From Sporolactobacillus kofuensis (GTDB lineage: Bacteria > Bacillota > Bacilli > Bacillales > Sporolactobacillaceae): a stretch of DNA of 64,000 bases. Where the stretch lies: the NCBI RefSeq assembly GCF_024125425.1, contig NZ_JAMXWN010000001.1, forward strand, positions 1-64,000, read 5' to 3'. Shown here one piece after another: positions 16,960 through 55,653 of this stretch. Under the pieces are notes generated by a model. The model did not search any database. It saw nothing but the letters and a program-made list of their open reading frames with translations, and had not been told where the DNA came from. How positions within the stretch are numbered: the first letter of the stretch is position 1; every line of letters starts with the position of its first letter. The translations under genes and the position numbers were made by a program.

Positions 16960-17085
16960 GATATGATGGAGACGCACGTGGGGGTGCAAGTGTGCTCCCG
17001 CATCCAGCAAGCAATAGAAGTGCAAGTGAAGCAAAATATGGAGTAGGCAGTATTTGCCGAGTTTATCCAAGGATATGAAAGTCAA
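16960..17085 (+). repeat. Diverged copy of the dispersed structured repeat
   Basis: The 3' part GCAATAGAAGTGCAAGTGAA, then GCAAAATATGGAGTAGGCAG and TTGCCGAGTTTAT, aligns almost without gaps with the end of the copy near 45.9 kb (GCAATCGAAGTAAAATCAAT, then GTAAAATAAGGACTGAGCGG and TTGCCTAGCTTAT). The 5' part GATGGAGACGCACGTGGG resembles GATGCGAGACGCCTGCGGG of the tandem units. The stretch contains no gene. Confidence 0.5.
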
Positions 17086-20809: not shown

Positions 20810-20848
20810 AAAGCGCCATTCCATTAGACATTAATGGAATGGCGCTTT
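20810..20848 (+). terminator. Terminator of the fabHF operon
   Basis: AAAGCGCCATTCCATTA and TAATGGAATGGCGCTTT form a perfect 17-bp stem with the loop GACAT, followed by TT. Confidence 0.88.
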
Positions 20849-20861
20849 TGGGTTTTAGCTT

Positions 20862-21050
20862 AAAAATGAGCGAAGATGCGAGACGCCTGCGGGATCAGCG
20901 AACCAGTGAGACCCCGCAGACTCTTGCCTGTTCGAGGAGGCTCACGGATCGCCCGCGGCAAGCGAGCAATCGTAGCACAATTGATAAAAGATAAGGATTG
21001 AAGGTTTTTGCTTAGTTTTTAAAAAATGAAAGTTATAGGCCTTTTGTTTG
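20862..21050 (+). repeat. Structured intergenic repeat, tandem unit 1
   Basis: The unit starts near GCGAAGATGCGAGACGCC and contains CTGCGGG...CCCGCAG (7-bp stem), GGAGGCTCACGGATCGCCCG and the tail AGCGAGCAATCGTAGCAC. It ends with a T-rich stretch and an AT-rich spacer containing AAAGTTATAGGCCTTTTG. It differs from unit 2 at only a few bases and lies 189 bp before it. Confidence 0.8.
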
Positions 21051-21240
21051 AAAATGCAGCGAAGATGCGAGACGCCTGCGGGATCAGCGAACCAGTGAGA
21101 CCCCGCAGACTCTTGCCTGTTCGAGGAGGCTCACGGATCGCCCGCGGCAAGCGAGCAATCGTAGCACGATTTGATAAAAGATAAGGATTGAAGGTTTTTG
21201 CCTAGATTTTAAAAAATGAAAGTTATAGGCCTTTTGTTTG
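21051..21240 (+). repeat. Structured intergenic repeat, tandem unit 2
   Basis: It is nearly identical to unit 1 over the whole length. Visible differences are CACAATTGAT against CACGATTTGAT, and CTTAGTTTTT against CCTAGATTTT. The near identity of core and spacer means the whole ~190-bp unit was duplicated recently. Confidence 0.8.
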
Positions 21241-21320
21241 AAAAAGCAGTGAAGATGCGAGACGCCTGCGGGATCGTTCCGGTTGATGCGAGCAATTGAT
21301 GTGTAATCGAGCACAGATTG
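21241..21320 (+). repeat. Structured intergenic repeat, truncated tandem unit 3
   Basis: The unit begins like units 1 and 2 (GAAGATGCGAGACGCCTGCG), then jumps to GATCGTTCCGGTTGATGCGA followed by GCAATTGATG. That tail resembles the single copy near 45.9 kb (GGTCGTTCCAGCTGGTGCCA), so it is a shorter subtype rather than a random truncation. No gene is seen from here to yjbA. Confidence 0.65.
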
Positions 21321-21536
21321 ACGTTCAAAAGCTTGCACTCTGGCATAGAGTAAGAATGCTATTGATAACTAATAAACTTGAGATGGTGCAGGTCAGAAAT
21401 AAATACATAGACTCTTTACGTCATGAATAAGATAGGACAAGTCGTTCACCTAGGATAAAAAAATACGAGAATCAGAATAGATTTCTGTAATGATGACCAT
21501 AATGTTGTCAAATCAATAAAGAGGAGATGTAGGTTC

Positions 21537-22477: not shown

Positions 22478-23807
<1,330 letters not shown>

Positions 23808-44005: not shown

Positions 44006-45700
44006 ATGACTGTTTTTGAAGATTATCAGTACGAACGACCAGAAGTTGCCAAATACGAAGAAGCTTTTCAAAAGGCTTTCGATACGCTGAAAAATGCGGC
44101 AACATTTGAAGATGCAGTACATGCTGTTGAAGAGGTCAACCACTTACGAAAACATCTGGATACGATGTTTCGCCTTGTTGAAATTAGACATACCATTAAC
44201 ACTGAAGATCCTTTCTATAAAGAAGAAAATGATTTTACTGATGAAACAATGCCTATTTTTGAAGGGAAAACAACTGAATTTTATAAGCTGCTGCTAAGTT
44301 CTCCATTTCGCGCTGAACTGGAGAAGAAATGGGGCAAACAGCTCTTCGCACTTGCCGAAGCGCAGCTCAAATCGTTCTCTCCAGAAGTCATTCCATTGAT
44401 GCAGCAGGAAAACAAATGGGCGTCAAGGTATACGAAACTGATTGCAGCTGCGAAGATCCCATTCGACGGAGAAGAACGCACACTGGCACAAATGGTCCCG
44501 TTTCAACAATCTTCTGATCGAAAAGTAAGAAAAGCAGCGCTTGAAGCGTATTTTGGTTATTTTGCTGATCATGAAAAAGAGTTCGATGAAATTTACGATC
44601 AATTGGTTAAGATTCGAACAGAAATCGCGCACAAGCTTGGCTTTGATAACTATGCCGATCTTAGCTACTTTCGAATGGCACGTATCGGTTATGACAAAGA
44701 AATGGTCAAAAATTATCGGGAACAAATTAAAAAATATGTTGTACCGGCCGCTCAACGACTCTATGAACGGCAACGGAAAAGAATTGGCGTGGACTCATTA
44801 AAGTTCTATGATGTCCCATTCCAGTTCACAACCGGGAACGCAGTACCAAAAGGCAATGCGAACTGGATTATTGAGAATGGAAAGAAGATGTATTCAGAGC
44901 TGTCAAAGGAGACCGGCGAATTCTATCAGTTTATGCTGGATCATCATCTGATGGATCTGCTTGCCACGAAAGGAAAGGCGGGCGGCGGATACTGTGAATA
45001 CATTTTTGATTATGAGTCACCATTTATCTTCTCCAACTTTAATGGGACGGCAGATGATATCGATGTGCTCACACATGAAGCCGGACATGCATTCCAGGTC
45101 TATTCGACGCATACGGATATTCCGGAATATCGTTGGCCGACATTTGAGGGCGCTGAAATTCATTCAATGAGCATGGAATTCTTTACATGGCCATGGATGA
45201 ACCTGTTCTTTAAGGAAGATGCCGATAAGCGCAGATTCTCTCACCTGAGCGATTCGCTTTTGTTCTTACCGTATGGAGTAAGTGTCGATGAGTTCCAACA
45301 CGTTGTCTACGAACATCCGGAAATGACACCGGCACAGCGCAAGCAAGCGTGGAAGGATATTGAGAAGAAATATCTACCTTACCGCGATTATGATGGCATT
45401 GAATTTCTCGAGATGGGTGGATTTTGGCTACGGCAAGGCCACATCTTTGAATCACCTTTCTACTATATTGACTATACACTGGCTCAAGTGTGCGCCTTTG
45501 AATTCTGGAAGAAGTCACAGGAAGATTATGGTGCTGCCTGGAAGGATTACTTGCATTTGTGCAAACAAGGAGGAAGCCAATCCTTTTTGGATCTCGTTAA
45601 GACAGCGGGACTTGAATCACCACTTAATGAAGGTTGTGTCGCTTCAACTGTGAAGGCTGTTACGGATTGGCTAGATCAGGTGGATGACAGTAAATACTGA
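44006..45700 (+). CDS. M3-family oligoendopeptidase (second PepF-like)
   Basis: The 564-residue M3 zinc peptidase has DVLTHEAGHAFQVYST (HEAGH at about 357-361) and the Glu of GAEIHSMSMEFF that completes the zinc site. It is shorter than and distinct from the PepF encoded 7 kb upstream. It probably works on short intracellular peptides. AGAGGTGCTGGGCA precedes the ATG. It stands alone between terminators. Confidence 0.9.
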   Translation: MTVFEDYQYERPEVAKYEEAFQKAFDTLKNAATFEDAVHAVEEVNHLRKHLDTMFRLVEIRHTINTEDPFYKEENDFTDETMPIFEGKTTEFYKLLLSSPFRAELEKKWGKQLFALAEAQLKSFSPEVIPLMQQENKWASRYTKLIAAAKIPFDGEERTLAQMVPFQQSSDRKVRKAALEAYFGYFADHEKEFDEIYDQLVKIRTEIAHKLGFDNYADLSYFRMARIGYDKEMVKNYREQIKKYVVPAAQRLYERQRKRIGVDSLKFYDVPFQFTTGNAVPKGNANWIIENGKKMYSELSKETGEFYQFMLDHHLMDLLATKGKAGGGYCEYIFDYESPFIFSNFNGTADDIDVLTHEAGHAFQVYSTHTDIPEYRWPTFEGAEIHSMSMEFFTWPWMNLFFKEDADKRRFSHLSDSLLFLPYGVSVDEFQHVVYEHPEMTPAQRKQAWKDIEKKYLPYRDYDGIEFLEMGGFWLRQGHIFESPFYYIDYTLAQVCAFEFWKKSQEDYGAAWKDYLHLCKQGGSQSFLDLVKTAGLESPLNEGCVASTVKAVTDWLDQVDDSKY

Positions 45701-45732
45701 TGAGTCACTGAATAAATTGCAGAATAAAGAAT

Positions 45733-45766
45733 AAACCTCGTATTGGATGAGACCAATACGAGGTTT
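45733..45766 (+). terminator. Terminator after the second M3 peptidase
   Basis: AAACCTCGTATTGG and CCAATACGAGGTTT form a perfect 14-bp stem around ATGAGA, followed by TT. Confidence 0.85.
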
Positions 45767-45779
45767 TTCATTTTTTCTA

Positions 45780-45952
45780 AAAAAATAAGAAAGTATAAGG
45801 CTTTTGCAAAAAAACAGCGCAGATGCGCGCCACAGACCGTGGGTTGACCGTGGAGGCGCACGGATCGCCCACGGTCGTTCCAGCTGGTGCCAGCAATCGA
45901 AGTAAAATCAATGTAAAATAAGGACTGAGCGGTTGCCTAGCTTATAGAGATT
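45780..45952 (+). repeat. Single diverged copy of the structured repeat
   Basis: It keeps the spacer-like start AAGTATAAGGCTTTTG, then GCGCAGATGCG, GGAGGCGCACGGATCGCCCA and the tail AGCAATCGAAG...TAAGGACTGAGCGG...TTGCCTAG. ACCGTGGG and CCCACGGT pair perfectly, where the tandem units have CTGCGGG and CCCGCGG, so both sides of the stem changed together. The region has no gene. Confidence 0.7.
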
Positions 45953-55380: not shown

Positions 55381-55480
55381 GACCCGCAGAGAACATACAT
55401 GGATGAGGATGCTTATAGATCGCTTTTGGTAAGAGGATATCGCAGCACAATCGATGGAAATTAAGGACTGGGTGGTTTTT
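55381..55480 (+). repeat. Decayed copy of the structured repeat
   Basis: GACCCGCAGA, GATGAGGATGCTTATAGATC, GGTAAGAGG, ATCGCAGCACAATCGATGG and TTAAGGACTGGGTGGTTTTT align in order and spacing with GACCCCGCAGA, CGAGGAGGCTCACGGATC, GGCAAGCGAG, ATCGTAGCACAATTGATAA and ATAAGGATTGAAGGTTTTT of the tandem units. The GC stem is largely lost, so it is likely inactive. Confidence 0.55.
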
Positions 55481-55653
55481 TTCGGCCCGGTTTTTCTCAT
55501 TACTTTGAACGGTTGAGTATAACCAAAAATGTTGTCTTCCTTAATTGTCGCGATCAATGTAAAGGGAGCTGCAAAAAAATAGGGGCAGGCAATGGACAAG
55601 GACACCGAACATATACTGAACTCAGTGATGACATATATGGGGAGGCGCCTATC

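Follow-up and report, generated by a model that had tools for sequence, protein, structure and literature searches.

A probably decayed copy of a folded repeat in Sporolactobacillus kofuensis, and the paired changes that keep the fold in its relatives

The diverged repeat copy at 45803-45945 on the + strand of the window analysed here, a 64,000-nucleotide stretch of the 2.96 Mb draft genome of Sporolactobacillus kofuensis, is probably a decayed copy of a folded, apparently non-coding mobile element whose fold is selected in other lineages and has been lost in the S. kofuensis copies. In relatives of the family the fold really is kept by paired changes. The diverged copy itself, as its alignment reads, shows no paired base change at the stem concerned (arm1:arm3).

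Register and hairpin of the diverged copy

A single tandem unit used as query found the 45803-45945 copy at E 4.1e-9. This match is independent of the search model R1, whose training set (37 copies) contained the copy, and 45 bases of the copy pair with the tandem units at 76%; the sequence-only reading was thus right to relate the copy to the units. That reading also had CCGTGGG...CCCACGG replace CTGCGGG...CCCGCGG of the units. Both heptamers are indeed present, at 45837-45843 and 45868-45874 on the + strand, and they are perfect complements that can be extended to GACCGTGGG/CCCACGGTC, but CCGTGGG occupies a different position from CTGCGGG. In the gapless register against the tandem units, the CCACAG before CCGTGGG aligns to CCGCAG (arm2), which in the units lies 3' of arm1. 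A 27-mer around CCGTGGG (CCACAGACCGTGGGTTGACCGTGGAGG) agreed with the loop (P4) register at a mean of 15.9/27 and a maximum of 20 (63 S. kofuensis copies in which the register could be set), compared to a mean of 10.2/27 and a maximum of 16 for the CTGCGGG (arm1) register (87 copies). Its best ungapped matches, at 22/27, were the loop segments of two other S. kofuensis copies, eg CCGCAGAAAGTGGGTTGACCGAAGAGG. A profile of the S. kofuensis copies, aligned with gap costs of our own choice, gave the diverged copy 86.0 bits, whether it was left free or constrained to the loop register; placing CCGTGGG on arm1 lowered the score by 20 bits, to 66.2.

In the profile alignment columns 23-54 are missing from the diverged copy; these hold arm1 and the 5' strand of the extension helix, P3b. 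CCCACGG is its arm3, CCGTGGG falls in the loop (P4) region, and an extra TCGTTCCAGCTGGTGC module follows arm3. The complementary heptamers are therefore, on this alignment, a loop segment paired to arm3 and not the family stem, and since the copy is without one helix strand, the pairing would be new or fortuitous. The non-report by the structure model R2 (built from 67 sequences, none of them from the S. kofuensis genome) at E ≤ 10 with default filters points the same way as the register tests. Folded as RNA, 45815-45900 gave -41.8 kcal/mol on the + strand (z -2.9) and z -2.3 on the - strand; on each strand 3 of 200 shuffles did equally well, so that the hairpin is slightly better than expected by chance.

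Two explanations of this hairpin have to be weighed. It is hardly credible that the diverged copy keeps arm1:arm3 by a change of C-G to U-A and of U-G to C-G, as had been proposed. The complementary heptamers and the slight advantage over shuffles speak for it, but the register is off by 20 bits and by segment identity, R2 gives no report, arm1 is missing, and for the U in CUGCGGG a bulge is a better reading than a U-G pair. That the hairpin arose by chance as a G+C-rich stretch decayed, which would be compatible with the explanation we prefer, has an even chance of being true: three of the 200 shuffles fold as well and the structure is not the family fold, although its nine perfect pairs exceed most shuffles.

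The copy lies directly after a terminator-like hairpin and T-run at 45721-45778 (+ strand; inverted repeat and terminator scan), which itself follows the gene at 44006-45700, presumably an oligopeptidase gene. Altogether six stretches of the repeat family were found in the window, all on the + strand: 16975-17069, 20857-21024, 21044-21214, 21234-21283, 45803-45945 and 55382-55498. The second and third are tandem units 1 and 2, near-consensus copies found by both R1 and R2 (R2 scores of 129.3 and 125.4 bits), and a terminator-like hairpin of the upstream gene, read from the sequence and scoring 0 in a home-made scan, lies directly before unit 1 at 20810-20849 (+ strand). The third unit, at 21234-21327, has a large internal deletion; R1 covers 21234-21283 and R2 21238-21327, at 22.5 bits. 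The copies at 16975-17069 (R1 E 6.9e-10; R2 12.8 bits, E 0.16) and 55382-55498 (R1 E 1.6e-12; no R2 report at E ≤ 10) are degenerate and represent the 3' part.

The family fold

Source copies can fold, according to the model derived here, as a long bulged hairpin made of an outer stem P2, arm1:arm3 with one bulged U, P3b and a variable terminal loop. In unit 1 (+ strand) the 5' strand of P2 is at 20875-20879 (columns 17-21; 73-78% of cells paired, helices 1 and 2 of alignment A2 below) and its 3' strand, with one bulged A, at 20966-20971 (columns 109-114). Arm1, G-CC-(U bulge)-GCGGG, occupies 20885-20893 (columns 27-35) and pairs with arm3, CCCGCGG-C, at 20952-20959 (columns 95-102). The strands of P3b are at 20899-20910 (columns 41-53) and 20941-20951 (CTCACGGATCG, columns 84-94).

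This structure was derived from 226 distinct cores aligned without structure: 100 from S. kofuensis, 45 from congeners, 66 from other genera and 15 unlabelled. They came from 424 profile matches, 356 of which covered the core with at least 25 bits. Column pairs were compared to 40 nulls in which substitutions were reshuffled along the tree, giving a resolution limit of E ≤ 0.025. The two strongest pairs, 50-87 (U-A 84, C-G 61, G-C 38) and 43-92 (A-U 79, U-G 53, G-C 53), were above all 40 nulls (E ≤ 0.025) and lie inside the proposed helix. The third-ranked pair, 43-91, does not pair (E 0.5), and after it comes 27-102 (G-C 104, U-A 82), which with E 1.5 is not significant alone. The paired columns nest into one helix, which runs from 27-102 through CC-(U bulge)-GCGGG against CCCGCGG to P3b. 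For 27-102 to be in register, the U of CUGCGGG has to bulge out; by eye, the base at this position varies between U, A, C and G. Watson-Crick cells made up 83% in the proposed structure and 23-32% with the partner slid, where the structure had partly been read from the same data.

A second alignment, A2, was made after the structure had been fixed. It holds 67 sequences from outside S. kofuensis, a subset of the 226, realigned; they were thinned by hand from 102 references, 9 copies of genome G031 and the 15 unlabelled rows having been left out. In A2 88.8% of cells were paired, compared to 31-46% slid and 81.0% shuffled. The covariation score was 0.253, compared to 0.122 for shuffled alignments (0/500 as high), and there were 136 two-sided cells against 45.9 shuffled. 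Less extreme were the number of pairs with a two-sided change, 11 against 8.9 (37/500 shuffles), and of pair types, 35 against 31.3 (22/500). All these shuffles ignore the relatedness of the sequences. RNAalifold on A2 alone predicted arm1:arm3 with the bulge and P3b; P2 was not predicted. The sense strand of one relative (L220) folded into the outer stem, arm1:arm3 and P3b with z -3.9. The energy fold of the tandem unit on the + strand has arm1 paired to arm2, not arm3 (z -2.1, 6/200), and the - strand folds better (z -3.4). RNAalifold on 37 S. kofuensis copies gave almost no structure (-2.45 kcal/mol); near full length were 53 of the 66 S. kofuensis stretches, and 16 of those 53 had been left out of the first alignments.

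Paired changes in other genomes and in S. kofuensis

Changes at 22 pairs were counted on a tree for 126 copies from outside S. kofuensis (the 15 unlabelled included) and for the 100 from S. kofuensis. In the former, Watson-Crick pairs changed to other Watson-Crick pairs 38 times (null 3.2, range 0-7). Changes to G.U (37, null 49.3) and to A.C (27, null 45.2) were inside the null range, and those to other mismatches were 40 (null 89.6, range 65-120). In S. kofuensis two-sided changes were also above the null (20; null 5.9, range 1-13), and one-sided changes equalled it, at 92 and 92.4 for G.U, 84 and 86.4 for A.C, and 131 and 133.9 for other mismatches. Pairing is guarded in the other genomes and is lost at a random rate in S. 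kofuensis, whose copies look decayed for that reason. A pair-by-pair G-test on the S. kofuensis copies alone found no significant pair, and the best helix pair was outscored there by four column pairs that lie elsewhere.

The set from outside S. kofuensis was extended to 161 by 35 distinct cores from 40 further loci, and 200 nulls were used. The eight arm1:arm3 pairs then had 10 two-sided Watson-Crick changes (null 2.0, range 0-9; 0/200 nulls reach 10), and the ten P3b pairs 41 (null 2.1, range 0-6). Other mismatches were fewer than in any null, 16 against 61.5 in arm1:arm3 (range 40-84) and 40 against 65.0 in P3b (range 42-84). Arm1:arm3 is otherwise nearly invariant, and most of the covariation is therefore in P3b. 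The pair that the sequence-only reading had named, 32-98, was C-G in 143 of the 161, U-A in 6, G-C in 5, U-G in 2 and mismatched in 5. The U-A pairs came from two genomes (the L149 copies of G027 and L361-363 of G210) and the G-C pairs from three; parsimony gave 3 two-sided events, a number reached by 1 of the 200 nulls. Five S. kofuensis copies also have U-A at 32-98, eg CTGTGGG/CCCACGG at C9:41797. The covariation expected on more copies was thus found, above background, in other genomes. It favours the idea of selection on a folded form, which had been put forward from the diverged copy, and speaks against that copy, with its lost helix strand, as an example of it.

An excess of one-sided G.U over A.C changes would be expected if the RNA of one strand alone mattered. 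No significant excess was seen outside S. kofuensis (37:27, p 0.26) or in it (92:84, p 0.60), so that the selected molecule could be RNA or DNA. Raw cell counts of G.U and A.C (60 and 20 in the genus, 49 and 25 in the order) were rejected as a sign of RNA; they are misleading, a few pairs being fixed as G.U.

The paired changes might arise from mutation, a change in one arm being copied to the other by hairpin-templated correction or gene conversion. Consistent with this, two-sided exceed one-sided changes within genomes other than S. kofuensis (16 and 13 cells), there is no clear asymmetry of G.U over A.C, and the two-sided excess persists in S. kofuensis copies whose one-sided changes look neutral. 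Against it, mismatches besides G.U and A.C are below every null in the other genomes, which is hard to obtain from mutation bias alone, and the structure model matches 21/94 sampled genera. As the whole explanation it is very doubtful. Templated correction could add to the two-sided changes, and the shortage of mismatches in the relatives argues for selection as well.

Spread and mobility

R1 gave at least 155 matches at E ≤ 1 in the S. kofuensis genome, 150 of 729 candidates having been scored, and matches in 29 of 38 genomes, S. kofuensis included, with 6 to at least 75 per congener. A pattern taken from the S. kofuensis copies matched a single record, of S. laevolacticus DSM 442, in a search that may omit the record of origin. 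Of 200 genomes sampled from the class Bacilli, R2 matched 47 (S. kofuensis included), and these fall into 21 of the 94 genera covered. Full-length matches measure about 140-200 bp, and many other matches are shorter fragments. BLAST found relatives on plasmids of Bacillus badius, Peribacillus, Priestia, Niallia, Paenibacillus, Planococcus and one B. subtilis; no Enterococcus record was among the plasmid matches listed. The gene preceding the diverged copy is present in all of 14 congeners, and at those loci, 13 of which reach beyond the gene and one of which ends just after it, R1 found no copy at E ≤ 0.1. The repeat family is dispersed and probably mobile.

The nine copies in the one-contig genome G063 (L330-L338) include seven that are nearly identical and have common ends. 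With small variations they run from GAGGCTGGGACA to TGTCCCAACCTC; the ends GAGG(C/T)TGGGACA...TGTCCCAACCTC extend over 12 bp, and the weak ends TAAGAAA...TTTCTTA were seen by eye in the genus Sporolactobacillus. Most flanks in G063 are rich in A to the left of the copy and in T to its right, as if the copies were set in terminator hairpins. In this young-looking group a terminator-like hairpin, AACATCATTTTCTCC..GGAGAAAATGATGTTTTTTT, lies within the element, ahead of its right end. In several copies of G025 (L230-L239) and G037 (L220-L229) the same core is enclosed by the outer ends GGCTCTGTTAAA...TTTAACAGAGC, which differ from those in G063 and in Sporolactobacillus, so that one core has different shells.

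Three candidates for the origin or the mover were rejected. A phage origin was dismissed since a search of phages found no match to the repeat. Of 19 genomes 18 have Y1 transposases, which are missing from G001 with its at least 75 copies; outside the genus, one of the 10 Y1 loci examined (of 12 matches) has a repeat copy within about 2 kb. A RAYT/REP mover was rejected on both counts, nine of the ten loci being without linkage. The exception is locus L317 of G024, where some 180 bases separate a copy at 1655-1783 from the frame of a RAYT-like Y1 transposase at 1966-2536. A derivative of group IIC introns was rejected because RVT_1 is absent in 11 of the 19 genomes, including the carriers G031, G017, G024 and G001.

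Gene context and explanation

Gene context was taken from 44 clusters in 41 S. kofuensis regions, which cover 66 of the at least 155 matches there. The upstream gene is on the strand of the element in 39 of the 44; both neighbours are co-directional with it in 30 and opposite in 2. The corresponding figures are 19/23 (2 more unclassed), 16 and 1 in congeners, and 22/29 (5 unclassed), 15 and 4 in other genera. A terminator-like hairpin precedes 31/44 clusters compared to 13/38 control gene ends followed by a gap of at least 80 bases (15/54 without the gap condition), by a home-made criterion and with controls not matched for position. The right end of many S. kofuensis copies is itself terminator-like by eye (ACTGGGC..GCCCAGTTTTT); the home-made scan scored 18/44, and a search for terminator stems in the S. 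kofuensis and genus segments found one in 16/118.

These biases could mean that each copy acts in place as a structured 3' end, ie as a stabiliser, processing site or extra terminator, with the orientation reflecting that use. The mostly co-directional placement 3' of genes, the terminator-like right ends, and the relatives' pair-breaking changes, which are below the null, would all fit. We consider it unlikely, as S. kofuensis copies break pairs at a random rate, congeners are without a copy after the same gene, there is no significant G.U excess, and several copies are truncated. The explanation that we prefer, of a mobile element that decays after insertion, would have a small multi-copy element, apparently non-coding and with source copies that fold, spread through Bacilli. 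Selection would keep the fold in other lineages because the element needs it; we infer that the fold most likely serves recognition by a putative mobilising enzyme, the next possibility being that it acts in the 3' part of a transcript. New copies would land downstream of genes in a preferred orientation, often beside intrinsic terminators, which is seen as a bias. In S. kofuensis they would then lose the fold by ordinary mutation and deletion, the diverged copy included.

Relation to known repeats

Rfam 15 gave no gathering match in the repeat stretches of the window or at 19 other loci, and sub-threshold matches at E ≤ 10 only. No recognised description of the family was found in the literature searched, which was open-licence papers only; given that scope, and as repeats are hard to find by words, this absence is weak evidence. 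The repeat works like a non-autonomous structured repeat of the MITE/ERIC/EFAR kind with an unusually wide spread. The nearest names are EFAR/Efa-1, bcr1 and Bhal-1, compared here by description. EFAR integrate at stem-loops; the copies here are often beside terminator-like hairpins (31/44, controls 13/38), which may be a parallel. For EFAR the reference cited in PMC3733652 is De Gregorio 2009, and Efa-1 of Enterococcus is given in PMC2267715 as 163 bp long, intergenic, in 65 copies and a double hairpin. The fold here differs from that double hairpin: it is a single long hairpin with bulges, and in the genus there is a terminator-like end apart from it.

According to PMC2267715 and PMC3733652, bcr1 is a small intergenic structured repeat of 147-167 bp in the Bacillus cereus group, and the title of Okstad 2004, in the reference lists of both, calls it mobile and B. 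cereus group-specific. The present family resembles bcr1, so described, as a small, intergenic, structured Bacillus-type repeat, and is set apart by description in that it occurs in 21/94 sampled genera and not within the stated group limit. Bhal-1 of Bacillus halodurans (74 bp, 36 copies, intergenic, folded; PMC2267715) could, by its description alone, be part of the same family.

ERIC are about 127 bp in size. Their description in PMC2267715, intergenic with a single long stem-loop, resembles the repeat studied here, but ERIC belong to enterobacteria, a different phylum. REP elements are described in PMC3733652 as 20-40 bp with tagged ends. The tag is GTAG or CGTC. High copy number, palindromic form and extragenic position are shared with them, whereas the present element exceeds 100 bp, has a multi-part helix and shows no RAYT linkage in the loci examined bar 1/10. 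For MITEs PMC3733652 gives 70-300 bp, no coding capacity, terminal inverted repeats of 15-30 bp and an IS with the same ends; the full-length members of about 140-200 bp lie within the length given there.

As a tentative and rather doubtful extension, there may be one class-wide folded mobile family, unnamed in Rfam, matched by R2 in at least 21 genera of Bacilli, with a compensated helix, entry beside terminators in fixed orientation, and a shared host or helper factor that reads the fold; EFAR, bcr1 and Bhal-1 may be local branches of it. Small structured bacterial repeats are mostly known genus by genus, and the fold described here is kept across many genera of Bacilli. With copy numbers that can reach a hundred or more in a genome, the family is a data set on the mover and on whether folded DNA or RNA is the selected form. 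It also illustrates a pitfall, in that a hairpin in one diverged copy, at a non-homologous position, mimicked compensatory evolution.

Further features of the window

A short module like TCGTTCCAGCTGGTGC (45875-45890; L271-L275; C41:45872 in S. kofuensis) comes after arm3 in some copies and after arm1 in others, as if the element had two equivalent slots. The elements are found between the longest ORFs, but mechanical ORFs overlap the tandem array, eg one of 84 aa at 21084-21338 on the - strand. Above the gathering threshold Rfam recognises one feature in the window, a T-box leader at 23546-23790 on the - strand (117.8 bits), located at the 5' end of ORF 22478-23629 on the same strand.
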